A DNA stretch of 64,000 bases from Beroe forskalii (lineage: Eukaryota > Ctenophora > Nuda > Beroida > Beroidae). The first letter of the stretch is position 1; each line of letters starts with the position of its first letter. The position numbers were made by a program, and so were the translations under genes. Positions 10,740 through 33,900 of this stretch are shown here, in pieces. Location: assembly GCA_011033025.1 (NCBI GenBank), contig WFMF01000042.1, forward strand, positions 434,501 through 498,500, given 5' to 3'. The notes beneath the pieces were generated by a model. The model searched no databases and was not told where the DNA came from. It saw only the letters and a list, made by a program, of their open reading frames with translations.

Positions 10740-11290
10740 TGAAATGCCGTGTTCTTGTAAGCCTTAAGTACAATGTTATGTTCTTGTAAGCCTTACAATG
10801 CAAGAGGGGGTTTTAGAGAAATGTCACTGCTCGGCGCACTAAGCGAGAGTTTTAGCTTTTTAGTGAAATTTTAAGTCCTTGTAAGGGGGGGTGACTGTTT
10901 CTAGCTACTGCCTGGTGCACTCTGCGAGGGTTTTAGTGAAATGTTAAGTTCTTGTAAGGGGGGTGACTGTTTCTAGCTACTGCCTGGTGCACTTTTTGAG
11001 AGTTTTAGTGAAATGTTAAGTTCTTGTAAGGGGGGGTGACTGTTCCTAGCTACTGCCTGGTGCACTCTGCCAGAGTTTTAGTGAAATGTTAAGTTCTTGT
11101 AAGGGGGGGGTGACTGTTTCTAGCTACTGCCTGGTGCACTCTTTGAGAGTTTTAGTGAAATGTTAAGTTCTTGTAAGGGGGGTGACTGTTCCTAGCTACT
11201 GCCTGGTGCACTCTGCCAAAGTTTTAGTGAAATGTTAAGTTCTTGTAAGGGGGGTGACTGTTCCTAGCTACTGCCTGGTGCACTCTGCGA
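10740..11290. repeat. About 71-bp minisatellite growing from the last exon
   Basis: About six to seven units containing TAGTGAAATGTTAAGTTCTT then GTAAGGGGGGTGACTG and CTGCCTGGTGCACTCTGC. The last unit runs into the terminal exon of the minus-strand gene: on the minus strand each unit carries the CGCAGAGTGCACCAGGCAGT piece that in the exon encodes the last codons and stop. The copies differ in the length of the G run. Confidence 0.93.
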
Positions 11291-11449
11291 GAGTTTGACT
11301 TTCCTCTCCTGCTCAGAAGAGAGGGTCTGGAATAGCTGGATGATGTTTTTAAGTCCTGCCTGGTGCTCCCTGTACTCTGCCAGAGCGTTGTCTCTCTGTA
11401 CCACCAGCTGTCTCAACACCGCCTCCTCTCTAGCTACCTCCGCAGACAT
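11264..11449 (-). CDS. Coiled-coil gene exon A, probable last exon
   Basis: 186 nt, phase 0 in, 61 codons and a TAG stop. It begins MSAEVAREEAVLRQLVVQRD and ends KLSQSAPGSS. Acceptor CATGTGTCAG. I call it terminal because the frame ends in a stop and no good donor is visible. The last codons and stop lie inside the first unit of the 71-bp array, so the C-terminus may have been created by array growth; an unrecognised donor just before it is the alternative. Confidence 0.7.
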   Translation of the reverse strand: MSAEVAREEAVLRQLVVQRDNALAEYREHQAGLKNIIQLFQTLSSEQERKVKLSQSAPGSS

Positions 11450-14400
11450 CTGACACATGAACCTTCAATTCCCAGGAATTCAAATGGGGGGGGGGAGAGA
11501 AACCCTTCAATTCCCAGGAATTCAAAATGGGGGGGGGGGGTATTTTGAAGGTTAAATTACTTCTATACCAACAGCCGTACGGCCAATGACAGGAATAGAA
11601 GGATTCAAGAGTAATCAAGCCAGTGACGGTTAAGGAAGTGTAATCCATACTTTCTTCGCCCGCGACTTCGCTGAAATGGGCAGCTCCTCATTTAACCCTC
11701 CCGCACAGTTTCCTGTACGCTCGGCTGAGTGAACCGTCGGGCTGCATAGGCTCAAGATGAATCTCTCACCCTTAGCTCAGTGGCGCTGGCCGGGATTCGA
11801 ACCAATGATCTTTCGATCCTGTGCTCAAATCGATACCACTACACCAATGACCCTTAAAACCCTTCAATTCCAAGGAATTCAAATTGGGGGATTACAAACC
11901 CTTCAATAACCAGGAATTCAAATGGGGGTGCAAACCCTTCAATGCCCAGGAATTCAGATGGGGGAGAAGAAACCCTTCAATTCCCAGGATTTCAAATGGG
12001 GGTGCAAACCCGTCAATTCCCAGGAATTCAAAGGGGGGGGGTACAAACCCTTCAATAACCAGGAATTCAAATGGGGGGTTGCTAACCCTTCGATTCCCAG
12101 GAAGTCAAATGGGGGTGCAAACCCTTCAATTCCTGAACAGGAATTCAAATGGGGGTGCAAACCCTTCAATAACCAGGAATTCAAATGGGGGTTGCAAACC
12201 CTTCAATTACCAGGAATTCAGATGGGGGGGGAAGAAACCCTTCAATTCCCAGGATTTCAAATGAGGGTGCAAACCCGTCAATAACCAGGAATTCAAATGG
12301 GAGTGCAAACCCGTCAATAACCAGGAATTCAAATGGGGGTTGCAAACCCTTCAATTACCAGGAATTCAGATGGGGGGGAAGAAACCCTTCAATTCCCAGG
12401 ATTTCAAATGGGGGTGCAAACCCTTCAATAACCAGGAATTCAAATGGGGGTTGCAAACCCTTCAATTACCAGGAATTCAGATGGGGGGGGGAAGAAACCC
12501 TTCAATTCCCAGGATTTCAAATGGGGGTGCAAACCCGTCAATAACCAGGAATTCAAATGGGGGTGCAAACCCGTCAATTCCCAGGAATTCAAATGGGGGG
12601 TTGCTAACCCTTCAATTCCTGCACAGGAATTCGAATGGGGGTGGAAAATTCAGATGAGGGGTACGATAAGTTCTATAAATTCACGATAGTCGATAAATTC
12701 AGATGGGGGTAAGGAATTTAAGCAGGACTTGGTAAAGCAGTAAGGGTTTAGATGATGGCGGCGAGGTGTGGGGGTAGAGCAGTAGTGTAGGGGTATGTAC
12801 CAGCGAGGGCCAATCCCCTATGTGCTATGTGTAGGAGCTGCAGATAGGGCAGTATATAAGAAATAACTGTGTGTCTACTCTATCAGGATACCCCCCAGTA
12901 TGATAGAGTAGTAACAGTGTATCTATTCTTTAGAGTACCCCCCCCCCCTTAGTACTTTAGTATCATAGGAGCTGCTGAAAACACAACGTACCTCCTTGTG
13001 AGCGGCGTTATCGTTCCTCAGCTGCTCCAAAGCCTGTTTCTTAGTAACATTACAGCTGGCTTGCAGCACGGCGCGCTTACTGTTGCAGACCTGCTCCTGC
13101 TTCCTTGCTTCACTCTCCAACCCTCGCATCTTGCGGAACAGCGCCCTCTCAGTGTTACCAGCCTTCGACATGTCCTCCTGTAGAATAGAGGGGTGAGAAC
13201 AGCGCCTTCTCAGTGTTACCAGCCTTCGACATGTCCTCCTGTAGAATAGAGGGGTGAGAACAGCGCCCTCTCAGTGTTCCCAGCCTTCGACATGTCCTCC
13301 TGTAGAATAGAGGGGTGAGAACAGCGCCCTCTCAGTGTTACCAGCCTTCGACATGTCCTCCTGTAGAATAGAGGGGTGAGAACAGCGCCCTCTCAGTGTT
13401 ACCAGCCTTCGACATGTCCTCCTGTAGAATAGAGGGTGAGAACAGCGCCCTCTCAGTGTTACCAGCCTTCGACATGTCCTCCTGTAGAATAGAGGGTGAG
13501 AACAGCGCCCTCTCAGTGTTACCAGCCTTCGACATGTCCTCCTGTAGAATAGAGGGGTGAGAACAGCGCCCTCTCAGTGTTACCAGCCTTCGACATGTCC
13601 TCCTGTAGAATAGAGGGGTGAGAACAGCGCCCTCTCAGTGTTACCAGCCTTCGACATGTCCTCCTGTAGAATAGAGGGGTGAGAACAGCGCCCTCTCAGT
13701 GTTACCAGCCTTCGACATGTCCTCCTGTAGAATAGAGGGTGAGAACAGCGCCCTCTCAGTGTTACCAGCCTTCGACATGTCCTCCTGTAGAATAGAGGGG
13801 TGAGAACAGCGCCCTCTCAGTGTTACCAGCCTTCGACATGTCCTCCTGTAGAATAGAGGGGTGAGAACAGCGCCCTCTCAGTGTTACCAGCCTTCGACAT
13901 GTCCTCCTGTAGAATAGAGGGGTGAGAACAGCGCCCTCTCAGTGTTACCAGCCTTCTACATGTCCTCCTGTAGAATAGAGGGGTGAGAACAGCGCCCTCT
14001 CAGTGTTACCAGCCCAGCCTTCGACATGTCCTCCTGTAGAATAGAGGGGTGAGAACAGCGCCCTCTCAGTGTTACCAGCCTTCGACATGTCCTCCTGTAG
14101 AATAGAGGGGTGAGAACAGCGCCCTCTCAGTGTTACCAGCCTTCGACATGTCCTCCTGTAGAATAGAGGGGTGAGAACAGCGCCCTCTCAGTGTTACCAG
14201 CCTTCGACATGTCCTCCTGTAGAATAGAGGGGTGAGAACAGCGCCCTCTCAGTGTTCCCAGCCTTCGACATGTCCTCCTGTAGAATAGAGGGGTGAGAAC
14301 AGCGCCCTCTCAGTGTTACCAGCCTTCGACATGTCCTCCTGTACAATAGAGGTGTGAGAACAGCGCCCTCTCAGTGTTACCAGCCTTCAACATGTCCTCC

Positions 14401-17400
14401 TGTAGAATAGAGGGGTGAGAACAGCGCCCTCTCAGTGTTACCAGCCTTCGACATGTCCTCCTGTAGAATAGAGGGGTGAGAACAGCGCCCTCTCAGTGTT
14501 ACCAGCCTTCGACATGTCCTCCTGTAGAATAGAGGGGTGAGAACAGCGCCCTCTCAGTGTTACCAGCCTTCGACATGTCTTCCTGTAGAATAGAGGTGAT
14601 AGAAACACAGCAATCCTGAAGCTGAACAGTAATTTTCTCCCCCTGGCTCCCAGTTATCAGTAAACTTATAACGCAATAAGAAGACGAATAGGTACACTTC
14701 TCCATAGAGTCCGATGAAGTAGGTACTTACGAATAGGATCCACTTCTACATAGATTCCAATGAAGTAGGTACTTACGAATAGGATGCACTTCTCCAATGA
14801 AGTAGGTACTTACGAATAGGATGCACTTCTCCAATGAAGTAGGTACTTACGAATAGGATGCACTTCTCCAATGAAGTAGGTACTTACGAATAGGATGCGC
14901 TTCTCCATAGAGTCCACCCTCTTTTCGTTTTCTCGTGCCAGCTGTGAGAGTTTTGGCTGCCACTGGTTGGCTTTGGTTTGCCGCTGGGAGATGTGTGCTT
15001 TCTGCCGGGCAATATGGTCCTGCGATAAGCAGAGACTGAGAGTGGAGCAAGCAATGAGATCACTCCTAGTGGAACAAGCAATGAGATAACTCCTAGTGGA
15101 AAGAGCATTGAGATAACTCCTGGTGGAACAAGCAATGAGATAACTCCTGGTGGAACAAGCAATGAGATAAACCCTGGACACTAGTGACAATCCCATTATT
15201 AACCTGTGGATGACAGCCTGCCAGTCTTATAAGGGGTTATTCATAAAAGTAATCCGGTGAGTATATACTCAAATTTTAAGCCAAAATCCGGTTTTCTTAT
15301 TCATAAAACAGGTAATCCGTGAGTCTGAGACGGCCGTGAGTCTTGACTCGTGAGTTTTGACTTACAATCAATTTTGGCTTCATTTTTCGGATCAGTGGCT
15401 CACGGTTCTGGATTACTGGCTTAGAATCATGGATCACTGGCTCAAAATTTTGGATCACTGGATCTGAGTCTCGGATTTCTGACTTATGAGTCTCGGATCA
15501 TCGGATAACACTGGATTACGAGCGGCTCAGACTCAAAACGGAGTTATTCATAAAGTGAGCATATTCTCAAAATTCTGAGCCGACGGGTAGTGCCAGGATT
15601 TTTTGGATTACTTATGGATTACCGATGCAAATTAACGTAAAGAAAGCAGAAAAACGGTTTCATGAATGTCAAGTACCGTAAGATAATCGTTCAAATGGTA
15701 AATTTAGCGTTCAGGTAGAAAACTGTATTCAATTAACAGCTGAAATTCGTGTTTCACAAAGACATAAAACACAATTTATGCACATTTCATCTATATTATT
15801 GTCCTAACGGCAACGCTTCAAACACTCAAATAGTTATACACACTATGAAAGGTCTGGATGTAAAATCAAAACGCATATAGTGAAATATGGTGAGAGCGCA
15901 ATGAAACACCGAACCGTATATAAATTCCTTATCTCTGTTTGTTAACTCCACCGTATGTATTCGATCATAGACTTGTGTGCCTCAACGAATTTTCATTGAA
16001 GGTCAGTGGTCACGTGCGCGCGTCACGTGACTGCGCTGAACCAATAGCAGAGGAGATAATTGAAACGAGTAACCGTAGTTTATCTTCGTTTCCACTTTCC
16101 ATCACGTTCGTATCAATCACGATTGTTTTTCGCACATTTTATCTACGGTATATAAACGGTATATACGGTAACACAAGGTAAAATAGAGATAAAGAACACT
16201 ATGGTATTATAAGTGGTGCCACTCAGACACGGTTGATTACTCCATCCGTGTGTTACCATGTTTGTTTTGTGTCCTGGTTTATTTCTGATTAAGCGATCGA
16301 AATGGCAGTTTTCATAGTATGTGATTTGAGCTCTTGTGTCAATTGTTTATCAAATGCTTGGTAGTAGCGTGCTTTCGTTTTGTTTTCGACAGTATCAAAT
16401 TTTCATAGACATTTGAGGCCAGAATACCCGTGCAACTTAATCGTCGAAGTGATCTATGTTTGCTCCATTCGTGCTATTAGACCTCAACTTTTACATTTGC
16501 CATTTGATCGTCGTTCTTTTGAATTTATTTGTTGGATTTACCTTTACACGATGATGATGTCACATTTTAGTATTTTAGCTTTTACGAAATTATGATAGGT
16601 GATATAAGACTTGTCAATTTACCCGTTTCGATCATGCAGTTATCCAGCAGGCTTATTAGTTTATTGTTACTTTTAGTGAGCCGACACTGAGCCGTACCGC
16701 CGAATGATCCAAAAAATTGAGTTCCAGCTTCGCAGACTTAAAAAAGAAGCCAAAATGTGCAATCCACTTAGTCGAGACTCAAAATCCCGTGATCCGGAAC
16801 TCAATGCGCGGCAAGCCGAGACTCAATGCGCGGCAAGCCGAGACTCATAATCCAGTAATCCGGTACTTAAGTCGGTGATCCAAAGGACTGAGCCAACGAG
16901 CCATTATTTTAAGCCAATGATCCGAGACTCGCTGTAATCCAAGCCATGAGCCAGAGACTCACGGCTTGGATCGTGTTTATGAATACAAAATTTCTGACTT
17001 ACTTCTTTGAGTCTCGGATTTGAGTCTCTGGCTTAAGTCTCAGTCTCATTCTTATGAATAACCCCTATAGTGACTATCCTATCATTAACCTGGACTCTCA
17101 TTTCGTTGGTGTGGATGACTGCCTGATTGTCCACGTGGACTCTGTTCTCGCTGAGTTTCCGCTGCTCCTCCCCCACCTTCCCCAGCAGACAGTTCACATC
17201 CTGCAGCTTTCTGCCGTACTCCCGCTGCTGCAGATTCACAGCTCGCTCATTGTCCCGCGCTTCCTTCCCTCGCTGCCTGAAAGTTACTATTCAGTGAGGG
17301 GGTGGGGCTTTCTTCCCTCGCTGCCTGAAAGTTACTATTCAGTGAGGGGGTGGGGCTTCCTTCCCTCGCTGTCTGAAAGTTACTATTCAGTGAGGGGTGG

Positions 17401-20400
17401 GGCTTCCTTCCCTCGCTGTCTGAAAGTTACTATTCAGTGAGGGGGTGGGGGCTTCCTTCCCTCGCTGCCTGAAAGTTACTATTCAGTGAGGGGGTGGGGC
17501 TTCCTTCCCTCGCTGCCTGAAAGAGGGGGACTGGGGGACTGGGAGGGGACTGGGGACTGGGAGAGGACTGGGGACTGGGAGGGGACTGGGGACTGGGAGG
17601 GGAGTGGGGACTGAGAGGGGAGTGGGGAATGGGAGGGGACTGGGGACTGGGAGGGACTGGGGACTGGGGAATGGGAGGGGACTGGGGACTGGGAGGGGAC
17701 AGGGGACTGTGAGAGGACTGGGGACTTGGAGGGGACTGGGGACTTGGAGGGGATTGGGAGGGGACTGGGGACTTTTAGGGGAGTGGGGGCAAGGGCTGCC
17801 TGAGACGTTATCATTCAGGACTCAGGAGGAACTGGGAGGGAACTGAGAGCAGCCAGTCCTTCCCTCCCTGCCTGAGAGTAACTATTCAGTGAGGGGAGGG
17901 ATTAGGGACTAGGAGGGATACAACCAAATTGGGGTCGTAGGGAGTAGTTAAGGGAGTAGTAAACTAGGGGACTTTATGGATGATCTAAAGGTAACATACA
18001 GTATACCTGCACTATTTTCAATACATAGAAGCATTACCACAGCTCAGGAACCTGGTTTTGTTGTGGTAGTCCTTCTCGTAGCTCTGCAGCTGGGTTTTGA
18101 GGTGCTGGTTCACGACCTCAGCCTCCCGCCACTGGGAGAGTCTCTCCACTGCCTCCTCCCTCCTCCTCTTCTCGGTGTCCTGAGGGAGCCTGACTTAAAA
18201 CCTAACCCAAACCTATGACTCTAGCCCAAAGAGAGTTGCTCCTCCTCTTCTCGGTGTGCTGAGGGGAGCCTGACTTAAAACCTACCCAAACCTATGACTC
18301 TAGCCCAAAGAGAGTTGTTCCTCCTCTTCTCAGTGTCCTGAGGGGAGCCTGACTTAAAACCTACCCAAACCTATGACTCTAGCCCAAAGAGAGTTGCTCC
18401 TCCCTCCTCCTCTTCTCGGTGTCCTGAGGGGAGCCTGACTTAAAACCTACCCAAACCTATGACTCTAGCCCAAAGAGAGTTGTTCCTCCTCTTCTCAGTG
18501 TCCTGAGGGGAGCCTGACTTAAAACCTACCCAAACCTATGACTCTAGCCCAAAGAGAGTTGCTCCTCCTCTTCTCGGTGTGCTGAGGGGAGCCTGACTTA
18601 AAACCTACCCAAACCTATGACTCTAGCCCAGAGAGAGTTGCTCCTCCTCTTCTCGGTGTCCTGAAGGGAGCCTGACTTAAAACCTAACCCAAACCTATGA
18701 CTCTAGCCCAGAGAGAGTTGCTCCTTCCTCCTCTCGGTGTCCTGAAGGGAGCCTGACTTAAAACCTAACCCAAACCTATGACTCTAGCCCAAAGAGAGTT
18801 GCTCCTCCTCTTCTCGGTGTCCTGAGTGAGAATCATACTGCAGAAACTATAAACGAAGTACAAAAGTCGACCACACGTGATCCAATGTTCAGAAGAGAAG
18901 GTGGTTGCTTTGGCATTACTTTGCCTGTCACCACATGGGGAAGGACTTCTTGCTCCATACAAGAATACTGCCACCCTATAGTCTACCGACAACTGCTCAC
19001 CAAAACACTACGGTTCTCCGGTCGCACAGGAAAAATAGGCGATGGTTCCTGGTTACTGGTTAGAGTTAGGAACGGCAGGAACGCACCTCCTTCCGCACTA
19101 CAAGAAGACTGCCACCCACCCTAGATATAAGTTACCCTGCACACTAGAGTTACTATAGTTACCCTGTATAGTTGCTACAGTTACCCTGCGCTTCAATGAC
19201 AGTCAAAGCCTGACCTGTGAAACCGCGATGGGAACTGCGATTAAACAAAGTGGGACACGTCTTCATTTCCTGTGATGTTACCTTGATGTGCTTTTCCTTT
19301 TTAGATCTTTCCAGTCGTAGTTACCTTAATGTGCTTTTCTTTTTTAGACCTCTCCAGTCGTAGCTGGGCTCCCACTTCTTTCAGCTGACTCCCTAGTTCG
19401 TGGTGTTCTTTAGCCTGAGCAGTACAATGTGCAAAAACTGGGAAATAGGAGGGGTATGAGGGGTTTAGAGGGGAAGGAGGGGATAGGAGGGGGTAGGAGG
19501 GCGTGGGAGGGGAAGGAGGGGGGAGTAGGAGGGGTATAATGGCTTAGGAGGGGGTTGGAGGGAGAAGAAGGGGTAGGAGGGGATAGGAGGGGGTAGGAGG
19601 AGATAAGAAGGCGGTAGGAGGGGTTAAGAGGGTTAGGAAGGGGGTAGGAGGGGATAAGAAGGCGGTAGGAGAAGGTTGGAGGGAGTGGGAGGGGTAGGAG
19701 AGGGTAGAAGGTGGAAAGGAGGGGAAGTAGGAGGGGTATAATGGCTTAGGAGGGGGTAGGAGGAAGAAGGGGTAAGGGGACTGGGGGAGTAGGAGGGGTA
19801 GAAGGGAGACGGAAGGGGTAGAAGTAACAAATTGAGTAGGTAAGTACTTGGTTCTAGGTAGGTAGCAACTTAGTAGGTTGGTAAGTTGGTACTTCATAAG
19901 GTAGGTAAAACTTAGCAGGTAGGTAATTTGATAGTTAATTAGGTAAGTAAAACAACTTCACGTTTTACAATAGCTTTTGCACCTTATCTCTAAGCTTTTT
20001 CTCAAACTGCAAGCCAAGTTCTTCAGCTTCGATCATTATCTGATCCATAGCACTCAGGATTGACTGGTATCTCTGCTCTGTAGCCGTCCTGTAATTACAT
20101 TAATTAGTGATTGATAAGATTAATTAATAATGATCAATTAATTGAATTGAACTAGTTTCTAGTTGTGATCTGTTCAGTACCTACAGAGTACAGAACCCAT
20201 ATTTCGCGCTAGATTGTAATTTAATATTGCATTGGAATTCACCACTGAATATGATACTAAGAATGAGCCCCATACTCTTTAACTAAGTACAAACTTACAA
20301 ACACAAATCTTGAAGTTGCCATGGTAAATTATCGGGAAACTCAACTAATCTAATTAAGGTCACGGCTGCAAAACTTGGACACTTTATGTTACTGTAAGAG

Positions 20401-23400
20401 CTGAAAATTCACTCTTTTCATGCGTAATATACGAAACGGAACCGCGCGCGCCGCAAAGTTAGCAAAGATTTAATGATTTTAGTTCTGGCGAAGGTCCACT
20501 ATTACCTTACCATCTCACTACCCTTTGATTTTACTCGGAATCTTCGAATGTGAAATGCTGCAACCTACATGCAACCAGCTTGTGAAGTAATGTAGCAGGA
20601 GCCCATGTGAATTAGTTACTTAGTTACTTAGATACCACCAACATTTGGCTCATGCAGTAAGACATCGTATGGATATCCTTAGATTAATTAACAGCATTAT
20701 GGTACTGACACCTAACATATCAATGACACCAGCCTGCGGTCCGACGAATCTGGCACCAGTTTGCAAAGCATGGCTGACAGCAGTGAGCAGTCCGAATTAT
20801 CAATGACACCAGCCTGACGTATCACTGACACCAGTCTGACGTATCACTGACACCAGCCTGACGTATCACTGACACCAGCCTGCCGTATCACTGACACCAG
20901 CCTGCCGTATCACTGACACCAGCCTGCCGTATCACTGACACCAGCCTGCCGTATCACTGACACCAGCCTGCCGTATCACTGACACCAGCCTGCCGTATCA
21001 CTGACACCAGCCTGCCGTATCACTGACACCAGTCTGACGTATCATTGAAACCAGTCTAACGTATTGCTGACATCACTGACACCAACTTACGAATCACTGA
21101 AACCAGTCGGACGTATTGCTGACACCAGCCTGGCGTATCACAGTATCACTGACTCCAGTCTGGCGTATTACTGACACCAGTCTGACGTATCACTGACAGC
21201 AGTCTGACGTATCACAAACACCAGTCAGACGTATTGCTGACATCAGTACGACGTATCACTGACACCAGTCTGACGTATCACTGACACCTATCTGACGTAT
21301 CACTGACACGAGTCTGACGTATCATTAACACCAGCCAAACGTATCACTGACACCATTCTGGTGTATCACGGACACCAGTCTGACGTATCACTGACACCAG
21401 TCTGACGCATCACTGAACGAATCACTGAAACCAGTCTGGCGTATCTATGGCACCAATCTCACGTATCACTGACATCAGTCTCACGTATCACTGACACCAT
21501 TCTGGCGTATCACTGGCACCAGTCTGACGTATCACTGTCTGACGTATCACTGACACCAGTCTGGCATTTCAATGACACCAATCCGACGAATCACTGGCAG
21601 CCTGGTGTGACGTATCACTGACATCAGTCTGATGTATCACTGACACCAGTCTGACGTATCACTGACATCAGTCTGACGTATCACTAACACCAGTCTGACG
21701 TATCACTGACATCAGTCTGAGGTATCACTGACACCAGTCTGCCGTATCACTGACACTAGTCTGACATATAATTGATACCAGTCTGGTGTATACCTGACAC
21801 AAGTTTGGCGTATCACTGACACCATTCTAACGTATAACTGAAGCCAGTCTGGTGTATATATGACACCAGTTTGGCATTGCAATGACACCAATCCGACGAA
21901 TCACTGGCAGCCTGGTGTGACGTATCACTGACATCAGTCTAATGTATCACTGACACCAGTCTGAAGTACCAATGACACCAGTCTGAAGTATCAATGACAC
22001 CAGTCTCACGTATCACTGACACCAGTCTGACGTATCACTGACACCAGTCTGGCGTATCACTGAAACCAGTCTGCCGTATCACTGGTATCATTCTGACGTA
22101 TCACTGACACTAGTCTGACGTATCACTGACACCATTCTGACGTAAAACTGACACCAGTCTGACGTATCACTGACACCAGCCTGACGTATCATTAACACCA
22201 GTCTTACGTATCACTGACACCAGTCTGACGTATCATTGACACCAGTGTGACGTATTGCTGATCACACCAGTACGACGCATCACTGACACCAGTCTGACGT
22301 ATTGCTGACACCAGCCTGGCGTATCACTGACACCAGTCTGGCGAACCACTGACACCAGTCTGCCGTTTCAATGACAGCAGTCTGAGGTATCACTGACACC
22401 AGTCTGACGTATTGCTGAAACCAGTCTGACGAATCATTGACACCAGTCTGACGTATTGCTGAAACCAGTCTGACGAATCACTGACACCAGTCTGATGTAT
22501 TGCTGACACCAGTCTGACGTATCACTGATACAAGTCTGGCGTATCACTGACACCATTCTAACGTATTACTGAAGCCAGCCAGGTGTATATCTGACACCAG
22601 TCTGGCATTTCACTGACACCAATCCGACGAATCACTGACAACAGTCTGGCGTATCACTGACACCAGTCTGAAGTATCAATGACACCAGTCTCACGTATCG
22701 CTAACACCAGTCTGGCGTATCTATGGCACCAGTCTGGCGTATTGCTGAAACCAGTCTGACGAATCACTGACACCAGTCTGATGTATTGCTGACACCAGTC
22801 TGACGTATCACTGACACAAGTCTGGCGTATCACTGACACCATTCAAACGTTTTACTGAAGCCAGTCTGGTGTATATCTGACACCAGTCTGGCATTTTACT
22901 GACACCAATCCGACGAATCACTGACACCAGTCTGACGTATCACTGACACCAGTCTGAAGTATCCATGACACCAGTCTCACGTATCACTGACACCAGTCTG
23001 GCGTATCTATGGCACCAGTCTGGCGTATCACTGGCACCAGTCTGACATATCATTGACACCAGTCTGGCGTATCACTGGCACCAATCTTACATATAACTGA
23101 CGCCAGTCTGGTGTATACCTGACACAAGTCTGCCGTTTCAATGACACCAATCCGACGAATCACTGGCAGCCTGGTGTGACGTATCACTGACATCAGTCTG
23201 ATGTATCACTGACACCAGTCTGACGTATCACTGACATCAGTCTGACGTATCACTAACACCAGTCTGCCGTATCAATGACAGCAGTCTGAGGTATCACTGA
23301 CACCAGTCTGACCTATCACTGAAACCAGTCTGACGTATTGCTGAAACCAGTCTGACGAATCATTGACACCAGTCTGACGTATTGCTGAAACCAGTCTGGT

Positions 23401-26400: not shown

Positions 26401-28601
26401 TTTAATTTCAGCGTAATATTTAGTATTTTATGATAATATTTAGTATTTTATTTCGCACTACACATAACTTATGAGGCAGATAGTATAGAAGAAAGATTTA
26501 ATCATGGTTTTTTCATATTTTCATTCTCCTTTTGCCGTACAATTTGAAGGATTTGAATTGAGACTTGTCGTTTAACTGATTTGACTTTAATTTGAATGAA
26601 ATTTAACTCAATTAACAAGTAGCTGGCTCTTTCACCCAGCTATCGTACACTGATTAGCAAAGTAATTGTGCAGTACTTACAATACTTACAAAACTTACAA
26701 GGACATTTCTCTTTTCCTTCCTTCTTCCCTCATGTTTTGTAAACTTTTCCTGTTACTTTCTATCCTGAAAATACAGAACTCTCTATATTCTATGAGATAC
26801 CTTAACCATTTAAAAGCAAAACAAGTAAAAAATCACATGCCTGTAGATTTCCCAGTCTAAACTTTTCACCGGTTGATAGTGTTGCGTTTGCTGAGTTGAT
26901 ATGAACCATGGTGCAGCTTCGAGAGTGTGTTAATCTTCTGCTGTAGCTCATTGAACTGCTCCTTAGCATCTTCAGCCTTTGCTCTGTTGAAGGTTAACTT
27001 CAGTAAGTTGATAATATTAATGAAATCAACTATACGATTACATGATGAAATGAAGAATGTGCTTCATCTCCTGTTAGATATGTTACTTTATCAGCTACTG
27101 CCCTGTGAGAACATATTCTATTTTCAGTACTTGTTGTAGTCTTGGTAACACGATCTTTTCATAGTTTCATGTAAAAGCTTCTCATAGATTGAAGATTCTT
27201 GCTTCCATTTTTTGACAAATTAGAGTGCAAATCTTATTAAAGAAAGCTAACCCTCTATACAATACAGGGTACAATACAAAACAGGGTACCTCTATTTGAA
27301 GACACCTGCAGAGTGGTGAAGTTCTCTTGTCTCTTTCAAGAGGGTTCCTCGTTCTCTCACCAACTGCCTCTCCTTTGTCTTAGCCGCCCACTGGCCTTCT
27401 TCAAACACAAGACATATCTCAAAGAAGGTACTAAGTTGCTTGCTTTTGCTGTTTTCTTGAGGTACCTTATTGTTAAAGAAATTATAGGATATAAGGAGAT
27501 AAACTTGAACACATATTGTTTGAACCAAACTATCATTTGTGGAGGAATTTCAACCCTGAAAGTGCAAGCAGATAGGTATTTGCTTGTGAATCAAAAGCAG
27601 TTGTCCACTTTTCAAAAGCAAATGTCTGCTTTTGGGGAAGTGGACATCCACTTTGGATGAAGAAGCTGCAGATCCAACCTTATTTGTTATGTACCTAGAT
27701 GAATAAAGCAGTGACAATTGTCATTCATCTCATTTACAATGCCCTGCAACAGCAACAACAAGAACTTTTTTACTGGTCAGCTTGTGAAAATTTGCATACT
27801 GTCAACCCTTACCATAACCAGGGTTGATTAATGATTTCTTGTTTCGTGTTGATTCACTTGTTGTTTCAGGTTGAATTGTTAGTTTTGGGTTGATTTGTTT
27901 GTTTCGGATCGTTTGGGATCATTCACACAATACATTATCACTTATCATCAAGGGGTTTTCAAGTGATTACTTACATGTTTTGTAACAAATACAGTAACTA
28001 CTGTAAACTTGATTATGAGGGGGGTTAAAAAATACAAAAATTGATAATTTAATATGTTAACAATCCCTTTCAGCTTGATTTGGGGAGGTTTTTTGGCTGG
28101 TTCCTGCTTATAGTATTGACAGATTTATGGGTTAGAGTAATGAATAATTTCATTTGAAGTAAAGTTTTTACTTGTTATTCAGTTAATCTGCAAGGCTGAG
28201 TCCTTTCAGAACAAAATCTCTCTATCTGTACTCAGATAAAATTCATATTGATATTTCTTTTCAAAAAGGGTGCCATTGAAAATGATATTTGAGATTTTAT
28301 ACCAGATTCATTTATTACTGTGATTTTCAATAAAGAAATTCTGTAAGCTACAAATATTAATCTTTTGTTTCACTAATCTTTTGTTTCACTTTAACCACTC
28401 TAATCATCAATCTTCAACCAGCCTTTTTTTAATTTTCAACTGGCCCTTCCATCTAAATTTTCTACTGTTGTTTCTTCCATAAGGTCCCAGAAATTATATA
28501 AAATTGCCCTAATTCAAATAGTTGCTATACCTCCTAAAACACAATAAACATCTTCATCTTCTTACTTCAACTTCAACTGCAAGATTCTTCAGGTGAGTGA
28601 T
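11264..28601 (-). CDS. Coiled-coil protein gene, 10 exons found (5' end missing)
   Basis: I assembled this gene from ten minus-strand segments, each bounded by AG and GT with compatible phases: 28601-28566, 27417-27306, 26981-26870, 20088-19983, 19414-19325, 18179-18038, 17268-17090, 15019-14888, 13177-12992 and 11449-11264. Together they make 1281 nt, that is 426 codons and a stop. The predicted protein is rich in E, K, Q, R and L with heptad-like spacing throughout (for example QLRLERSKKEKHIK and KEQFNELQQKINTL). It is therefore a largely coiled-coil, probably cytoskeletal, centrosomal or ciliary protein, but I do not recognise the family. The first exon is not identified and may lie beyond 28.6 kb. 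The introns are dominated by minisatellites that overlap exon borders. Exons C to G are duplicated in degraded form at 31-35 kb. The gene model is well supported by phase; its function is inference. Confidence 0.8.
11460..11548. repeat. 36-bp minisatellite, first block
   Basis: Two to three units containing CCCTTCAATTCCCAGGAATT followed by a G run. It is the same array as 11862-12655, split by the SINE-bearing insertion. Confidence 0.9.
11549..11861 (-). mobile_element. tRNA-derived SINE within the intronic array
   Basis: On the minus strand, starting at about 11855, the sequence has an A box (TGGTGTAGTGG) and, about 40 bp on, a perfect B box (GGTTCGAATCC), i.e. RNA polymerase III promoter elements. 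The T stem and acceptor stem do not pair well, so this is a tRNA-derived SINE and not a functional tRNA gene. It continues into a unique body to about 11560 and interrupts the 36-bp minisatellite, so the insertion is later than at least part of the array. I could not define target duplications securely. Confidence 0.65.
11862..12655. repeat. 36-bp minisatellite, main block
   Basis: About 22 units of 35-40 bp around CCAGGAATTCAAATGGGGG. Several unit types alternate (CAATAACC, CAATTCCC, CAATTACC, and CAGGATTTC versus CAGGAATTC), and a block of three to four units is repeated as a higher-order unit between 12185 and 12545. It fills the intron between exons A and B. Confidence 0.95.
12656..12991. 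other. Intron remainder between exons B and A
   Basis: Unique intronic sequence with an imperfect duplication of AGTATNATAGAGTA-type sequence near 12875-12955 and a C run at 12940. It begins with the GTACGT donor of exon B on the minus strand. Confidence 0.6.
12992..13177 (-). CDS. Coiled-coil gene exon B
   Basis: 186 nt, phase 0 to 0, 62 codons beginning EDMSKAGNTERALFRKMRGL and ending NDNAAHKE. Acceptor CTCTATTCTACAG, donor GTACGT. The acceptor with the first roughly 40 nt of the exon is repeated about 24 times upstream as a 60/61-bp minisatellite, so many equivalent 3' splice sites precede the true exon. Confidence 0.85.
13178..14600. repeat. 60/61-bp minisatellite carrying a 3' splice site, about 24 copies
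   Basis: On the minus strand every unit contains a pyrimidine tract, CTCTATTCTACAG, and then the start of exon B (GAGGACATGTCGAAGGCTGG). Units are nearly identical; they differ mainly in a GGGG/GGG run that makes them 61 or 60 bp. Sixty-bp units keep a 20-residue frame open, so in-frame inclusion is possible only across them. Confidence 0.97.
14715..14890. repeat. 37-bp minisatellite carrying a 5' splice site
   Basis: About four to five units. On the minus strand each has the end of exon C (GTGCATCCTATTC) followed by GTAAGTACCTACTTC, so the donor is repeated. Two diverged units at 14700-14770 read TCCACTTCTACATAGATTCC. Confidence 0.93.
14888..15019 (-). CDS. Coiled-coil gene exon C
   Basis: 132 nt, phase 0 to 0, 44 codons beginning DHIARQKAHISQRQTKANQW and ending SMEKRILF. 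Acceptor CTTATCGCAG, donor GTAAGT (near consensus). The last roughly 17 nt of exon plus the GTAAGTACC donor are repeated about four to five times downstream. A clean copy of most of this exon is at 30,964-31,066. Confidence 0.85.
15050..15180. repeat. 27-bp minisatellite next to the exon C acceptor
   Basis: About five units of GAGATAACTCCTGGTGGAAC plus AAGCAAT. On the minus strand they form a pyrimidine-rich stretch with several CCACCAG or CCACTAG decoy acceptors directly upstream of the real acceptor. A shorter version with fewer units is at about 31096-31165. Confidence 0.92.
15232..17066. mobile_element. 1.84-kb non-autonomous terminal-inverted-repeat element
   Basis: The left end AGGGGTTATTCATAA is the reverse complement of the right end TTATGAATAACCCCT. 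The flanks carry ATA on both sides (15229-15231 and 17067-17069), and the related copy at about 31,229 reads straight through (GTCTTATAGTGACTATCC), giving an empty site. Subterminal regions are packed with degenerate TGAGTC/GGATCAC/AATCC motifs in both orientations (15240-15620 and 16680-17050), and a second partial end-like motif (GTTATTCATAAAGTGAGC) is at about 15542. No transposase frame is visible, so it would be mobilised in trans. The 3-bp duplication suggests PIF/Harbinger; a TA duplication (Tc1/mariner type) cannot be ruled out. Confidence 0.85.
17090..17268 (-). CDS. Coiled-coil gene exon D
   Basis: 179 nt, phase 1 in and 0 out, including ERAVNLQQREYGRKLQDVNC and ending IHTNEMRVQ before a GTTAAT donor. 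The GCGAG acceptor at 17269-17270 restores phase with exon E; an alternative CAG eight bases upstream would not. The acceptor region is amplified five-fold upstream, and in the degraded copy the donor region is amplified about 20-fold (31.2-32.5 kb). The 1.8-kb inverted-repeat element sits 21 bp past the donor. Confidence 0.8.
17269..17525. repeat. 48-bp minisatellite carrying the exon D acceptor
   Basis: Five units of CTTCCTTCCCTCGCTGCCTG, AAAGTTACTATTCAGTGAGG and a G run. On the minus strand each contains TAACTTTCAGGCAGCGAG and the first bases of exon D, so the 3' splice site is multiplied. Confidence 0.93.
17526..17790. repeat. G-rich GGGGACTGGGAG repeats
   Basis: Degenerate repeats of GGGGACTGGGGACTGGGAGG on the plus strand. 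Many runs of three to five G at short spacing could form G-quadruplexes. This strand is the non-template strand with respect to the plus sense, i.e. the transcribed pre-mRNA of the minus gene would be C-rich here. The low-complexity proline/serine frame on the minus strand is not a gene. Confidence 0.85.
18038..18179 (-). CDS. Coiled-coil gene exon E
   Basis: 142 nt, phase 0 in and 1 out. It starts DTEKRRREEAVERLSQWREA and ends RFLSC plus one base. Acceptor TCCCTCAG, donor GTAATG. The acceptor and the first roughly 20 nt of exon are repeated about eight times upstream as a 79-bp minisatellite (18185-18830). Confidence 0.82.
18185..18830. repeat. 79-bp minisatellite carrying the exon E acceptor, about 8 copies
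   Basis: Units contain CTGAGGGGAGCCTGACTTAA, AACCTATGACTCTAGCCC and CTCCTCCTCTTCTCGGTGT. On the minus strand each ends with GGCTCCCCTCAG followed by the first codons of exon E. Some units have an extra CCTCCCT. Confidence 0.95.
18840..19260. other. Intron between exons F and E, unique part
   Basis: Unique intron sequence with a weak duplication (ACTGCCACCCTATAG/ACTGCCACCCACCCT) at about 18965 and 19108. A degraded copy is at about 33.9-34.25 kb. Confidence 0.5.
19271..19370. repeat. 49-bp two-copy duplication of the exon F donor
   Basis: The block TTACCTTGATGTGCTTTTCC through AGATCTTTCCAGTCGTAG is followed directly by a second version. On the minus strand this duplicates the end of exon F and its GTAAC donor; it looks like a nascent minisatellite. 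Confidence 0.88.
19325..19414 (-). CDS. Coiled-coil gene exon F
   Basis: 90 nt, phase 0 to 0, 30 codons including AKEHHELGSQLKEVGAQLRL. Acceptor TTGTACTGCTCAG, donor GTAACT. The last 49 bp, including the donor, is duplicated immediately downstream (19271-19321). The duplicate would hit a stop if translated by read-through, so only one donor use is productive in frame. Confidence 0.8.
19440..19835. repeat. Purine-rich GGTAGGAGGGG repeat tract
   Basis: Degenerate GGAGGGGATAGGAGGGGGTA repeats, nearly pure purine on the plus strand for about 400 bp, followed by AGGTAGGTA-type repeats to 19950. It can form triplex or G-quadruplex structures. The proline-rich frames on the minus strand are artefacts of the composition. 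Confidence 0.85.
19983..20088 (-). CDS. Coiled-coil gene exon G
   Basis: 106 nt, phase 2 in and 0 out. It reads TEQRYQSILSAMDQIMIEAE and continues as a charged helix ending KKLRDK. Acceptor TGTAATTACAG, donor GTGCAA (weak). A degraded copy (G') lies at about 34.9-35.0 kb. Confidence 0.75.
20089..20700. other. Large intron H-G, unique start
   Basis: Unique AT-rich intron sequence. A degraded parallel copy lies at about 35.0-35.6 kb. No exon seen. Confidence 0.5.
20701..24110. repeat. 22-bp minisatellite, about 150 copies, 3.4 kb
   Basis: Unit GACACCAGTCTGACGTATCA plus CT. Ends are more homogeneous (20,830-21,010 is almost identical CCTGCCGTATCAC units), while the middle is highly diverged. 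Multi-unit blocks recur (for example GACACCAATCCGACGAATCA with TGGCAGCCTGGTGTGACG at about 21,585, 21,890 and 23,145), showing segmental amplification. It is the largest array in the window and fills half of the biggest intron. Confidence 0.97.
24110..24460. repeat. 16-bp minisatellite with a diverged leader
   Basis: Eleven or so near-identical GTAGGTTTACACCCTG units at 24,295-24,455, preceded by diverged longer versions (CCCTATTTTGGTAG plus TTTACA) from about 24,110. Confidence 0.93.
24461..25339. other. Intron sequence and 5' flank of the nested gene
   Basis: Unique AT-rich DNA. Just before the nested gene's ATG there is GTTTGCAG followed by GGACC, which could be a 3' splice site of a 5'-UTR intron. 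No clear TATA or initiator is visible. Confidence 0.4.
25340..26200 (+). CDS. F-box-like protein with PP2/FBA-like C-terminal domain, intronless, nested
   Basis: A complete 286-codon frame with ATG start and TAA stop, clearly more GC-rich and codon-biased (CTG, CAC, AAG) than its surroundings. Residues 36-75 (PPLPLEVWKAVFDKMQIRDK and following) look like an F-box, the motif that docks substrate adaptors to SKP1 in SCF ubiquitin ligases. Residues about 112-280 form a beta-rich domain with CWLKFSVFNLQLPTGTFHLF, which resembles the phloem-protein-2/F-box-associated sugar- or glycoprotein-binding fold. On that reading it would be a substrate receptor for ubiquitination; this is inference from motif shape only. 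It lies on the opposite strand inside the 6.8-kb intron between exons H and G, and being a single exon it could be a retrogene. The antisense frames across it are shadows. Confidence 0.75.
   Translation: MTIKLLTCHDKPSKEGPHNKKQRCVGRRVSLRSISPPLPLEVWKAVFDKMQIRDKFAASEAVVEFHDFYQNLVARNAASYFAHFQTRAVELSAFHHLAQCQYQHWSELANQPRVTLSIYLSKHWVVAQDSTKDPFKHVTFQSEEGDDSLRHLKVNATCWLKFSVFNLQLPTGTFHLFYKMRGGPQEGEHQFKVRVAHSKVGKRRGYIHPRHVAALGCEWQWLPVYRDLACTTLLTLSNDFERGGRVREVAFYSSNDLWTRDLCFHSLQFVSTSDLNPFTMQVDDFC
26201..26869. other. 3' flank of nested gene / intron
   Basis: AT-rich unique DNA with short repeats (CTTAACATTTTATCATAACTT near 26,330; ATAATATTTAGTATTTTAT near 26,415-26,450). No gene seen. Confidence 0.4.
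26870..26981 (-). CDS. Coiled-coil gene exon H
   Basis: 112 nt encoding AEDAKEQFNELQQKINTL and a more polar tail. The AG acceptor just before CAAAGGC restores the codon split with exon I (G then CA). The donor is GTGAAA, leaving CG, which pairs with the G that opens exon G. The following intron (19,983-26,870 boundary) is 6.8 kb and holds the 22-bp array and the nested F-box-like gene. Confidence 0.7.
27306..27417 (-). CDS. Coiled-coil gene exon I
   Basis: 112 nt, phase 0 in and 1 out. It encodes a charged helix containing EEGQWAAKTKERQLVRERG. The acceptor TTCTTTGAG at 27418-27420 was chosen because it restores phase with exon J; a downstream GAAG acceptor (27398) would not. Donor GTGTCT. 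Confidence 0.65.
27418..28565. other. Intron between exons J and I
   Basis: Unique AT-rich intron. It includes an imperfect repeat of AAAAGCAG(T/A)TGTC(C/T)(A/G)CTTTT at 27,593-27,645. No other exon recognised. Confidence 0.4.
28566..28601 (-). CDS. Coiled-coil gene exon J (most 5' found), 12 codons
   Basis: A 36-nt mini-exon between a good acceptor (TTCTCCTTCAG) and a GTAAGA donor, phase 0 to 0. It reads ITHLKNLAVEVE, which continues in frame into exon I. It is the weakest exon in the model because it is so short; one frame is open and the other two have stops. Confidence 0.5.
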
Positions 28602-29639
28602 CTGAAGGAGAATTATTGCTTTTTGCTCCCTCCCTAGACACTAGGGACTACCCAGGTTTCGGCTGGAAGTTCAGTTAAAGACCTGATGGGAAGTTCAAAA
28701 TATCAATCTTAAACAAAATTAAAATCTCAAAATAAGAAGCAGCTAATCCAATTCAACTCAATAATGAATTTTTGTACAAAACTTACGAAATATATTTTTT
28801 GGATTGTATTATGGAAGCTATATTAAACCCATTATGAACTGAAGAAATCTGGAATACAGACCTATCAAAGCCTAATTGTGGTATTTCTTGCTGCTCTAGT
28901 TTCTTGACAAATTGTTCCATGATAACTCAGTTGTTATTTTGATAGATTATAATTATTATTAAGGGGGATGGGGTCCAAGGTCGATTGCAATCGATCACCA
29001 TCACAATATTTTAATATTTGTAGATTCTTGAGTTGACCAATACTTTTAAATTAAAGTTTCAAACTTGACAACACTACTTTATACAATAAAATTTGAGACC
29101 TGAAGATGTCGTAGAATGACGAAATTGATTGTCAGTAAAGAACCACATCATTTACATTTGTATTTGTACCATTGAGTCAAAAGAGAATAAATAAATTACT
29201 CAGGAGTTTTTAGGAATTTTAAATATAATTTATAACAAAAGAATTGTTATACAAATCTCATACAATTCAGCAGTATGTTAATTAGTGATATGTGGTGAGT
29301 TGGGAATAATATGAGCTAATGGTGAGTTAATGATCAGATGATAGAGGTCTGAGGTCTTGTAAGTGTGGTAACCTCAGAGAAACTGATGAAGCTGACTGAT
29401 GATACTAAAATGAGATTTGACCAGTGTGCTGAGAGGAAGTGGGGACAGGGAAGGAAGCAAGTCATGGAATGGGGAAGGGGCAGGGGGGAACTAAGAGGTA
29501 GAACAGGCAAAAGGTGATAGGGTGGAGCAGGGATCAAAAGGTCAAGGATTGCACAGGAGCTCTCTTATCAGTTGTTGTGAATTGAGATAATGCGGGCCTG
29601 CCTGCTCACATCATGGTACTACGAAATAGCGTTCATTTA
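28602..29639. other. Unique sequence upstream of exon J
   Basis: No convincing exon. The stretch at 29,095-29,150 (GAGACCTGAAGATG and GAAATTGATTGTCAGTAA) resembles a dispersed motif also seen at about 39.07 and 58.27 kb. The 5' exon(s) of the coiled-coil gene should lie here or beyond but I cannot identify them. Confidence 0.35.
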
Positions 29640-30490
29640 GAGGGATTGGAGGAGCCTGGTGACAAGAAGTTTCAGAGGATGTAAGTCAAACAGCTGGAAA
29701 AAGCAACTAACAGTGTTTTTGGCGAGATCAGCAAGGAGATATGCTGCAATTCACAGAATCACGCATACCTTACTCAGCATTACTTTCAGAGTAAGAAAAC
29801 CATCACAAAGGAAAAGCTCGGATAATGGCTTGAAACAGTGATCACCATACTTGATGATTTCTGGCTTCCATGGCTTGTCAAAGCTGATGATGACATTGAG
29901 GCATTGAACAATGAGAAGATAACAGACCAAAACAAGATCATCGACCTCCAGAACCAACTAATCAAGAGCAGAACGAGCTCTCGGAAGTGAAGACTACTGT
30001 AGCTACAGAGATGAAGTCCTACTCTGCAGTAGTATCAAAGAGTTGCACGCCCGCTTGCTGCCAAAAGTTTCAGGCAGCTGTTCAGAAAGCAACGGACTCA
30101 GCAAATGGAGCAAGAATATCATTGTATACAGAATTGAGGAGAAAGAAGAAGAGCAACTTTCAGGAAAAGTTGAAGAACTTCTGGCAGAGATTGATGAAAA
30201 GCCTTTTATCAAGAACTGCGCAAGAGTTGGGATGAAGAAGGAAGATTCGGTCAGACCTGTCAGGTTCTCGCTGAATAGCTCTGTCCATGTGCAGCAAATC
30301 CTGAAAAACGCAAGAAAGCTTCGCGCTAAGGATGGGTAAAGATCAATATACATCAGCCCTGATCGGTCTTTGGAAGAATGAAGAGCTTACAAGAAGACTG
30401 TTGAAGAACTAAAGCTGAAGAGATCAAAGGAACTCGACAAAGTTCGTGTTATCAGGAACAGTGGATTGTCAGTTTCTGTAGAGACAGTAT
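29640..30490 (+). pseudogene. Non-LTR retrotransposon ORF1-like remnant
   Basis: Plus-strand fragments in several frames read as one decayed protein. They run from a helical segment with LTVFLARSARRYA, through ATEMKSYSAVVSK, then KNIIVYRIEEKEEEQLSGKV, RPVRFSLNSSVHVQQILKNA, and finally IYISPDRSLEE and AYKKTVEELKLKRSKELDKV after an in-frame stop. The order (coiled coil, an RRM-like N(I/V)(I/V)VY core, a RPV-F block, then SPDRS-EER) is what I know from ORF1 proteins of animal CR1/L2-type and related elements. Several frameshifts and stops make it a pseudogene. No ORF2 follows. A related remnant is at 60.9-61.75 kb. Confidence 0.6.
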
Positions 30491-30950
30491 GCCTGATATG
30501 ATCTGTGAGACTTGAATTTCATTTCACTTTGTAATTTTAAGGGCCATGTTATTGCGTGTGAAGCCTGCTTCATCTACATTAGTTTAGTTAAGTTTAAAAT
30601 TTTGTCATACAACAACACGATTGGATACAATTCCTCGCCACTTATTCACTCATCATGTACCTAACAAGGTACCAATCATAATTAACATAAGGCAGGCTCA
30701 TTTCTTCATAATATACATACAGGTGAAAGCTTGCATTCTGCCACAAAATTCCTATTCTGCTATTATAAAGTCATAACATATCATGTTTTGGTATCCCTTC
30801 AAACTTTATTGACGATCGTGGTTTTGAATTTATTTTCCATTCATTGCTGTACAATATAGTTTGAAAAGTTTATATAAAAAGTGGGTAGGGTTAAGTAATA
30901 TGAACAAATGTGGGAGTCAGTGTCCTGTTGACAGGAGACCCCGAGACCAA
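30491..30950. other. Unique sequence
   Basis: AT-rich, no gene seen. It ends abruptly where similarity to the coiled-coil gene begins at about 30,960. Confidence 0.4.
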
Positions 30951-30962
30951 TGACCATCTGCA

Positions 30963-33900
30963 ACCCTCTTTTCGTTTTCTCGTGCCAGCTGTGAGAGTTT
31001 TGGCTGCCACTGGTTGGCTTTGGTTTGCCGCTGGGAGATGTGTGCTTTCTGCCGTGCAATATGGTCCTGCGATAAGCAGATACTGAGAGTGGAGCAAGCA
31101 ATGAGATCACTCCTAGTGGAACAAGCAATGAGATAACTCCTGGTGGAACAAGCAATGAGATAAACCCTGGACACTAGTGACAATCCCATTATTAACCTGT
31201 GGATGACAGCCTGCCAGCCTGGTTGTCTTATAGTGACTATCCTATTATTAACCTGGACTCTCATTTCGTTGCTATGGATAACCGCCTGGTTACCTGATAG
31301 TGCATGACTAACCTGGACTCTCATTTCGTTGCTATGGATAACCGCCTGGTTACCTGATAGTGCATGACTAACCTGGACTCTCATTTCGTTGCTATGGATA
31401 ACCGCCTGGTTACCTGATAGTGCATGACTAACCTGGACTCTCATTTCGTTGCTATGGATAACCGCCTGGTTACCTGATAGTGCATGACTAACCTGGACCC
31501 TCATTTCGTTGCTATGGATAAATCGCCTGGTTACCTGATAGTGCATGACTAACCTGGACTCTCATTTCGTTGCTATGGATAACCGCCTGGTTACCTGATA
31601 GTGCATGACTAACCTGGACTCTCATTTCGTTGCTATGGATAACCGCCTGGTTACCTGATAGTGCATGACCTGGACTCTCATTTCGTTGCTATGGATAACC
31701 GCCTGGTTACCTGGATAGTGCATGACTAACCTGGACTTTTCGTTGCTATGGATAACCGCCTGGTTACCTGATAGTGCATGACTAACCTGGACTCTCATTT
31801 CGTTGCTATGGATAACCGCCTGGTTACCTGATAGTGCATGACTAACCTGACTCTCATTTCGTTGCTATGGATAACCGCCTGGTTACCTGATAGTGCATGA
31901 CTAACCTGGACTCTCATTTCGTTGCTATGGATAACCGCCTGGTTACCTGATAGTGCATGACTAACCTGGACTCTCATTTCGTTGCTATGGATAACCGCCT
32001 GGTTACCTGATAGTGCATGACTAACCTGGACTCTCATTTCGTTGCTATGGATAACCGCCTGGTTACCTGATAGTGCATGACTAACCTGGACCCTCATTTC
32101 GTTGCTATGGATAACCGCCTGGTTACCTGATAGTGCATGACCGCCTGGACCCTCATTTCGTTGCTATGGATAACCGCCTGGTTACCTGATAGTGCATGAC
32201 TAACCTGGACCCTCATTTCATTTTGCTGGATGATAGCCGCCTGGATTTGCCTGATAGTGCATGACTAACGCCTGGACTCTCATTTCGTTGCTGGATAACC
32301 GCCTGGTTTACCACGTAATTTTGCCGACTAACCTGGACTCTCATTTCGTTGGTGTGGATGACTGCCTGATTACCTGATAGTGCATGACTAACCTGGACTC
32401 TCATTTCGTTGCTATGGATAACCGCCTGGTTACCTGAAGTAGTGCATGACTAACCTGGACTCTCATTTTTCGTTGGGGTGTGGATGACTGCCTGTTTTGT
32501 ATTGGATTTGGGGTTTTTGATTTCCCCCTTCCCTCCCCCCCCCTTTCCCCCCAGCAGACGGTTAAACCCCCAGTTTTGCCGTACTCCCCCAGATTAAAGG
32601 GGCTCTTTTTGGGTTCCCCCCTGCCCCAAAGCCTTTCAGTGAGGGGTTTTCCCTTCCTCGTTGCCTAAAAATTAATTTATTGAGGGGGGGGGGCTTTTTT
32701 TCCCCTTTTCCCTGGGGAAAGGGGGGGAGGGGGGGACTGGGGGGGGACTGGGGACTGAGAGGGGACTACGGGAGGGAGGGGGGAAACCGGAGAGGGGAGG
32801 GGGAAATGGGGGGAGGGGGACTGGAGGGATGGGGACTTGGGGGGGGAGGGGGGGCGGGGGTTTTGGGGAGGGGGGGAAAAGGGGCTGCCTGAGACTTACA
32901 TTCAGGACTCAGGAGGAAACTGGGAGGGAACGAAAAAAAATTCCTTCCTCCCCTGAGAGAATTTATTCAGTGGGGGGAGGGATTAGGGACTGGGGGATAC
33001 AACCAAATTGGGGTCGTAGGAGTAGTTAGGGAGTAATGCTTAGGGGGACTTTAGGATGATCTAAAGGTAACATACAGTATGCCTGCACTATTTTCAATAC
33101 ATAAAGCATTACCACAGCTCAGGCACCTGGTTTTTGTGGTAGTCCTTCTCGTAACTGGGGCTTTTGAATGCAGACCTCTTCTCCTGCTGGTTCCCACTGC
33201 CTCAGCCTCCCGCCACTTCTCAGGAGAGGCCTGACTTAAAACTCAAACTGCCTCCCTCCCTTCCTCTCCATTCCTAGCCTGTCTAGAAAGGAGCCTGGTG
33301 ATGCTGAGGGGAGCTTTAAAAACCTAACCCAAACCTGGCTCTAGCCCAAAGAAAGTTGCTCCTCCTCTTCTCGGTGTGCTGAGGGCCGACTTAAACCTAC
33401 CCAAACCTGACCAGCCCAAAAGAGTTGCTCCTCCTTCTTCTTTGTGCTGAGGGGGTGACTTAAAAAACCCCCCCCCAAAACCATGACTTAGCCCAAAAAA
33501 GAGTTGCTCCTCCTTTTTTGGTCCGGAGCACGGGCTTAAAACCCACCCAAACCTGACTCTGGCCCCAAAAGGGGTTGCCTCCTCTTCTTTAGTTCCAACC
33601 TTTACAAAAATTCCCAAAAAATTTGACTCCCGGAAAAAGGGGGTCCCTTTCCCCCTTTTTTGCTTTTAGGGGGGAATTTACTTAAAACCCAACCAAACCT
33701 ATGACTTTTAGCCCCAAAAAGTTCCTCCTCCCTTCTCCGGGTGCTGAGGGGGGAAACCCGACAAAAACCTTTAAACCCCCCCTTTTGACTCCCCCAAAAA
33801 GGGCCCTCCCTTTTCGGTTTCCCAAGGGGGGGCCGACCAAAACCCCCCAAACCTATGACCCCCCAAAAAAAGTTCCTCCTCCTTTTTCTTGGTGGGCCTG

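Follow-up and report, generated by a model that had tools for sequence, protein, structure and literature searches.

The predicted coiled-coil gene on the minus strand of Beroe forskalii contig WFMF01000042.1 is crossed at many of its exon borders by minisatellites that repeat the splice sites themselves. In the 64,000-nucleotide stretch of this contig that we analyzed (positions 434,501 to 498,500; here, the window), arrays detected by TRF straddle 5 of the 13 splice borders predicted for the gene (three acceptors and two donors), and a sixth border is affected in a partial second copy. The border arrays themselves are beyond doubt, and they are likely minisatellites of the type described as “mirages” in lancelets. 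Our preferred reading, to which we assign a probability of about 0.8, is that minisatellites are born at random positions and that those crossing a border are tolerated where an intact splice site is left beside the exon. The gene is notable for how many of its borders are affected and for how many nearly equal splice sites stand in a row.

The gene (11264 to 20088) comprises seven predicted exons that are read from G to A and join into a single frame of 337 codons plus a stop. Exons are lettered A to G by the scheme of the initial annotation, and all coordinates refer to the plus strand although the gene lies on the minus strand. Exon G (19983 to 20088; 106 nt) has AG/GT flanks and a phase compatible with exon F, and splice signals and phase likewise define exons F (19325 to 19414; 90 nt), E (18052 to 18179; 128 nt), D (17090 to 17276; 187 nt), C (14888 to 15019; 132 nt), and B (12992 to 13177; 186 nt) and the last coding exon, A (11264 to 11449; 186 nt), which contains the stop codon. 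AG or GT is canonical at each predicted exon border, and phases are consistent at all six introns. Because exon G starts at an acceptor, it is probably not the first exon of the gene. A Pfam search with the encoded protein returned no family at an E value of ≤1, and a PDB search returned a single match (E value = 0.76) and no credible relative, so the exon model is built on signals and frame alone. A genome search for paralogues with a 106-amino-acid query (exons C and B) gave three matches at an E value of ≤0.001, all of them in the two copies within the window.

TRF detected every one of the arrays that the initial annotation had placed on exon borders of this gene. Units combining the acceptor with the exon start are repeated on the minus strand at exon B (13136 to 14596; 61-bp unit), where AG is kept in 24 of 24 cores; at exon D (17259 to 17523; 48-bp unit; 6 of 6 cores); and at exon E (18153 to 18826; 79-bp unit; 9 of 9 cores). 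Units combining the exon end with the donor are repeated on the same strand at exon C (14684 to 14916; 37-bp unit), where GT is kept in 5 of 5 cores; at exon F (19277 to 19363; 43-bp unit; 2 of 2 cores); and, in the second copy, at exon D (31249 to 32468; 60-bp unit), where GT is present in 18 of 18 intact cores. A seventh minus-strand array (10858 to 11296; 72-bp unit) repeats the end of exon A including the stop codon, as the initial annotation had reported, with TAG kept in six of six copies. The units of the different arrays are unrelated in sequence, as judged by eye. The cores were located by similarity, with up to 7 to 9 mismatches allowed, and AG or GT was preserved in all 46 repeated splice cores found in copy 1 and in all 18 found in copy 2, a count from which badly damaged units are missing because the search tolerates limited mismatch. 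The copy numbers first proposed stand for exons B, C, and F and rise by one each for exons D (6) and E (9); for the exon D donor in copy 2, the similarity search recovered 18 intact cores rather than about 20, compared with 20.3 copies by TRF. The remaining 8 of the 13 borders of copy 1 lie outside arrays, and 3 of these have an array 21 to 32 nt away on the intron side.

Other repeats fill much of the space between the exons. TRF identified a 36-bp array inside intron B-A and away from its borders (11857 to 12647), a 27-bp array inside intron D-C (15041 to 15170) that stops about 21 nt short of the exon C acceptor, an 18-bp array inside intron E-D (17526 to 17772), and both a G/C-rich array based on a 10-bp unit (19446 to 19818) and a 42-bp array (19856 to 19953) inside intron G-F. 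Copy 1 also carries in intron D-C a 1.83-kb element with terminal inverted repeats of about 19 bp (GGGGTTATTCAT) at 15233 to 17065, for which copy 2 has an empty site. Arrays cover 54% of the interval from 10858 to 20100. They take up 58% of the bases outside exons, compared with 18.5% of exonic bases, where they are confined to the edges. Among the six introns, the array share is 61 to 95% in four and 14% and 51% in the other two. A tRNA-like stretch at 11780 to 11860 adjoins the 36-bp array and, by eye, may belong to a SINE; ARAGORN called no tRNA there.

The position of a splice-site copy within its array determines whether its use leaves an open frame. In the five border arrays of copy 1, the exon-proximal copy always keeps the frame open, and extension of the exon to any of the 41 alternative copies (23 at B, 5 at D, 8 at E, 4 at C, and 1 at F) always meets a premature stop, in a test that models exon extension to each copy and places introns inside an array outside its scope. 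Units of 61, 37, 79, and 43 bp are not multiples of three and throw the reading out of frame; the 48-bp unit keeps the frame yet runs into stops. These results support one of the three meanings offered in the initial annotation, namely, that arrays are tolerated where one splice-site copy stays usable.

The inner copies also show no sign of coding constraint in arrays B, D, and E, as assessed from the variability of exon-derived and intron-derived columns. Exon-derived versus intron-derived variability was 0.047 versus 0.028 in the B array (24 units), 0.047 versus 0.012 in the D acceptor array (five of six units), and 0.172 versus 0.159 in the E array (eight of nine units), after exclusion of one unit, the most divergent, from each of D and E and with noise from small indels added by the fixed windows. 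Exon-derived columns are therefore no less variable than intron-derived ones, and the inner copies behave as intron.

A simple sequence of events would account for these patterns. Tandem repeats make up about a fifth of the DNA sampled from this genome, and short segments would be copied in tandem and would grow, presumably by slippage or unequal exchange, at largely random positions. Where the duplicated segment happens to span an exon border, the splice site is repeated by necessity. Such an array would be tolerated where the copy beside the exon body, the last for an acceptor and the first for a donor, forms an intact border. The spliceosome would then take the exon-proximal copy, as exon definition would favor, so that the array is spliced out in its entirety with the intron, the protein is unchanged, and the array may be neutral. 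Against this reading, a spliceosome that simply scanned downstream from the branch point would be expected to pick the first AG and not the last. In contrast, arrays lying wholly within exons would alter the protein and be removed by selection.

Whether the arrays meet borders more often than expected depends on the null model. When the array mask, including the stop array, was rotated over 10858 to 20100 and the protection of exon interiors was ignored, a mean of 6.96 of the 13 splice borders fell inside arrays versus the 5 observed (P [≥5] = 0.90). In a birth model, we collapsed every array to one unit, removed the inserted element, excluded the stop array from the events, and placed the units at random, disallowing positions wholly within exons; 2.05 to 2.08 straddlers of 10 arrays were expected versus 5 observed (P = 0.033 to 0.034). 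Restricting the model to the 8 arrays with a period of at least 20 gave a P value of 0.022, adding copy 2 gave 6 straddlers among 11 arrays (P = 0.015), and keeping the element, for 12 arrays, gave P values of 0.005 to 0.006. The two nulls thus disagree, with no excess under rotation and a nominal excess under the birth model, and all of these P values make a bias look stronger than it may be because the gene was picked for its striking looks. Any array lying across a border necessarily repeats that border, and array coverage is enough to explain how many borders are affected; therefore, no process aimed at splice sites is needed. The possibility raised in the initial annotation that a process targets splice junctions is accordingly not borne out, since rotation alone gives 7.0 borders versus the 5 seen. 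A special splice-linked amplification system, which we considered and rejected, is likewise unnecessary, as coverage predicts at least as many border matches as were observed. The birth-model excess (5 of 10 versus 2.1) nevertheless counts against pure tolerance without bias, which does not predict an excess, and a modest birth bias at borders (P of about 0.02 to 0.03 in most variants, post hoc) may exist.

That mild excess keeps alive, as an unlikely reading, a real preference of minisatellite birth for exon borders, for example, through R-loops or stalled forks at the junction of a GC-rich exon with an intron, or through splicing-linked DNA damage. Beyond the P values of 0.005 to 0.034 across the variants of the birth model, it can draw on a GPCR gene about 11 to 13 kb to the left of the window (L010), in which a 43-bp array ends 3 nt past an acceptor. 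The same gene, modeled with phase-consistent exons, also speaks against such a preference, because an array touches just one of its seven borders, and a myosin-head gene (L035) with six family matches has no array in 4.4 kb; these two genes are the whole of our gene comparison outside the window, which is one of small numbers rather than a genome scan. The lack of excess under rotation and the selection of the gene for its looks weigh in the same direction. It is doubtful that minisatellites in this lineage arise preferentially at borders, with their growth tied to transcription or splicing. If they did, introns would be steadily lengthened and splice sites moved. Under such a hot-spot reading, the 24 near-identical B acceptors, of which the last alone leaves the frame open, would point to site choice by exon definition and not by first-AG scanning.

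Three further readings concern the gene and its transcripts. The exon model may be wrong or the gene dead, in which case the arrays would be ordinary intergenic minisatellites; the missing Pfam family, the lack of a credible PDB relative, and the truncation of copy 2 in exon C would suit this reading, but seven phase-consistent exons with canonical borders in a single 337-codon frame make it highly improbable. It is very improbable that the arrays act as a copy-number rheostat, with competing sites partly used, stops sending some transcripts to decay, and array length tuning expression. The intact dinucleotide at 46 of 46 copy-1 sites found and the stop in 41 of 41 alternative uses would suit a rheostat, but recent expansion alone also predicts intact sites, and lancelet mirages are described as leaving splicing undisturbed. 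Barely credible is the idea of a dual role for the AG|GT of donor units, as a donor and as an acceptor, with introns of one or more unit lengths spliced inside an array: the motif does occur at the junction in the F and copy-2 D units, and such dual use has been described for human UBC (PMC10809524), but the F array has only two copies, 43 bp apart, the C donor reads TTC|GT with no AG before the GT, and the acceptor arrays B, D, and E have no GT at the junction.

Random birth with tolerance also fits what is known of comparable repeats in other animals. The initial annotation knew of no named system like this, a statement superseded by the match to lancelet mirages (PMC3087553, PMC3902484) and by human parallels (PMC2630376, PMC2812944). 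Mirages were described as tandem repeats across exon-intron borders in two lancelet globin genes (PMC3087553); the same paper cites a mirage in lancelet Adh3 with 10- to 72-bp units and somatic instability, states that the Adh3 and globin mirages seem not to interfere with regular splicing, and proposes mirages as a source of new introns. PGBD5 and troponin C have joined the list (PMC3902484). As here, the mirages of Adh3, BflGb6, BflGb9, troponin C, and PGBD5 are minisatellite-like repeats over acceptor or donor borders with AG or GT in many units, which in lancelets measure about 10 to 160 bp. Lancelet haplotypes also differ in copy number (six versus three units in BflGb6). The arrays in the ctenophore gene have three of these features: the unit spans a predicted border, both 5′ and 3′ borders are affected, and AG or GT is kept in many units. 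They differ in extent: a single gene here has arrays at five borders, its copy adds a sixth, and up to 24 units stand in a row, compared with one or two borders for each gene in the accounts of lancelet mirages that we consulted. They also occur in another phylum, but lancelets are where mirages were described and not part of their definition. Among the matches listed in the open-access literature, we found no report of mirages in ctenophores.

Human genes offer parallels as well, two of them close ones in CBS. The 31-bp VNTR of CBS (c.1444_1467+7) is present in 16 to 21 copies (PMC2630376), and its unit, going by its name, joins 24 nt of exon end to 7 nt of intron, so that every unit contains a donor, which is also the arrangement in the exon C and exon F arrays. 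The CBS variant 844ins68 is a 68-bp duplication of the intron 7/exon 8 junction in which the “more distal” site is strongly favored (PMC2630376); we read this as the exon-proximal acceptor, although the term used in the paper is donor sites. In contrast to the gene analyzed here, these are two separate loci with one junction each, and 844ins68 adds a single extra copy. A survey of human duplicated genes reported tandem repeats at exon-intron boundaries (162 alignments before curation and 27 intron modifications after it; PMC2812944). It shares with our case the expansion of minisatellites at the borders of recently duplicated genes, but the human repeats often remain exonic or create introns, whereas all inner uses tested here break the frame. 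Dual-specific splice sites lie within the tandem repeat units of polyubiquitin (human UBC; PMC10809524), and intron gain by tandem genomic duplication likewise involves splice motifs inside repeat units (PMC4974935); as described, both concern coding repeats with usable frames, unlike the frame-shifting 61-, 37-, 79-, and 43-bp units.

These observations extend a lancelet curiosity to the ctenophore phylum and suggest that mirages would follow from a high density of tandem repeats rather than from lancelet biology. With up to 24 near-identical splice sites in a row, of which the exon-adjacent one alone yields the protein, the gene amounts to a natural experiment, and the many affected borders and long runs of near-equal sites make it a good test bed for splice-site choice. 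They also carry a warning for annotation, as gene predictors may call false exons inside such arrays.

Copy 2 (30960 to 35840, minus strand), identified by blastn, is a partial duplicate of the gene in the same direction; it is cut off inside exon C and, at its other end, continues past exon G. Between 31.0 and 32.5 kb its sequence is clean and carries the exon D donor array absent from copy 1, in line with the initial annotation, which had confined this array to the second copy: the D donor is single in copy 1, versus 18 found in copy 2, a comparison to be read with the proviso that copy 2 may represent a paralogue, another haplotype, or a misassembly. Thus, since the two copies separated, at least one border array has been gained or lost. 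Between about 32.5 and 36 kb, the sequence is poor, with inflated homopolymers, and its alignment, at about 75%, opens 213 gaps (blastn and homopolymer profile), indicating that positions 32500 to 36000 of the window are probably unpolished or wrongly merged.

The wider assembly (216 Mb in 1134 contigs) provides the background for these comparisons. Tandem repeats account for 35% of the window; across 23 sampled stretches totaling 226 kb, six of which flank the window, the share is 20% (17.5% for periods of at least 10). For comparison, 13% of one ctenophore genome consists of TRF repeats, according to a report whose consulted passages do not mention splice sites (PMC8527503). A codon-model exon finder intended for a genome-wide border test was dropped because repeat codons swamped its training and the gene scored 0.065 per codon. 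One long gene-like stretch beside large arrays (L023) was left out of the border counts, as its borders could not be fixed by eye. In the GPCR gene, an acceptor appears by eye to be duplicated before the TM5 exon, about 40 bp apart (L010:7279-7338), at a site not in the TRF output. Two adjacent matches to the same stretch of the myosin head (positions 104 to 173) lie at G000:C225:1041609-1042105 and perhaps mark a duplicated exon.

Pfam named 3 of 10 sampled reading frames (GPCR, phosphoesterase, and telomerase-like). The last of these, a 659-amino-acid frame about 3 kb to the right of the window (L012:2878-4854, on G000:C492), matches the telomerase RNA-binding domain (E value = 2.2e-5) and, below the family cutoff, a reverse transcriptase (E value = 2.7e-4), and it is probably a TERT gene. 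Family searches of the genome gave 104 homeodomain and 13 innexin matches. GFPs are present in lancelets; the GFP family search of this genome, run with no positive control, gave no match. None of three candidates matched zf-C4, again with no positive control, and ctenophore nuclear receptors lack the zf-C4 domain (PMC3038971). This gene content would suit a ctenophore best, and a lancelet was rejected as the source on the basis of the family searches.

Elsewhere in the window, two non-LTR retrotransposon copies (39200 to 45300 and 46765 to 49937; family assigned by eye) have near-identical reverse transcriptase frames. Degenerate telomere-like repeats at 45819 to 46095, GGGTTA type and then CCCTAA type, stand head to head, perhaps as an old telomere fusion or an insertion, and are flanked on both sides by GGCGCCTATA-type repeats. 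An assembly gap of 100 N occupies 56038 to 56137, and arrays built from GTCGA and related variants, present in both orientations, span about 1.5 kb at 61900 to 63500.
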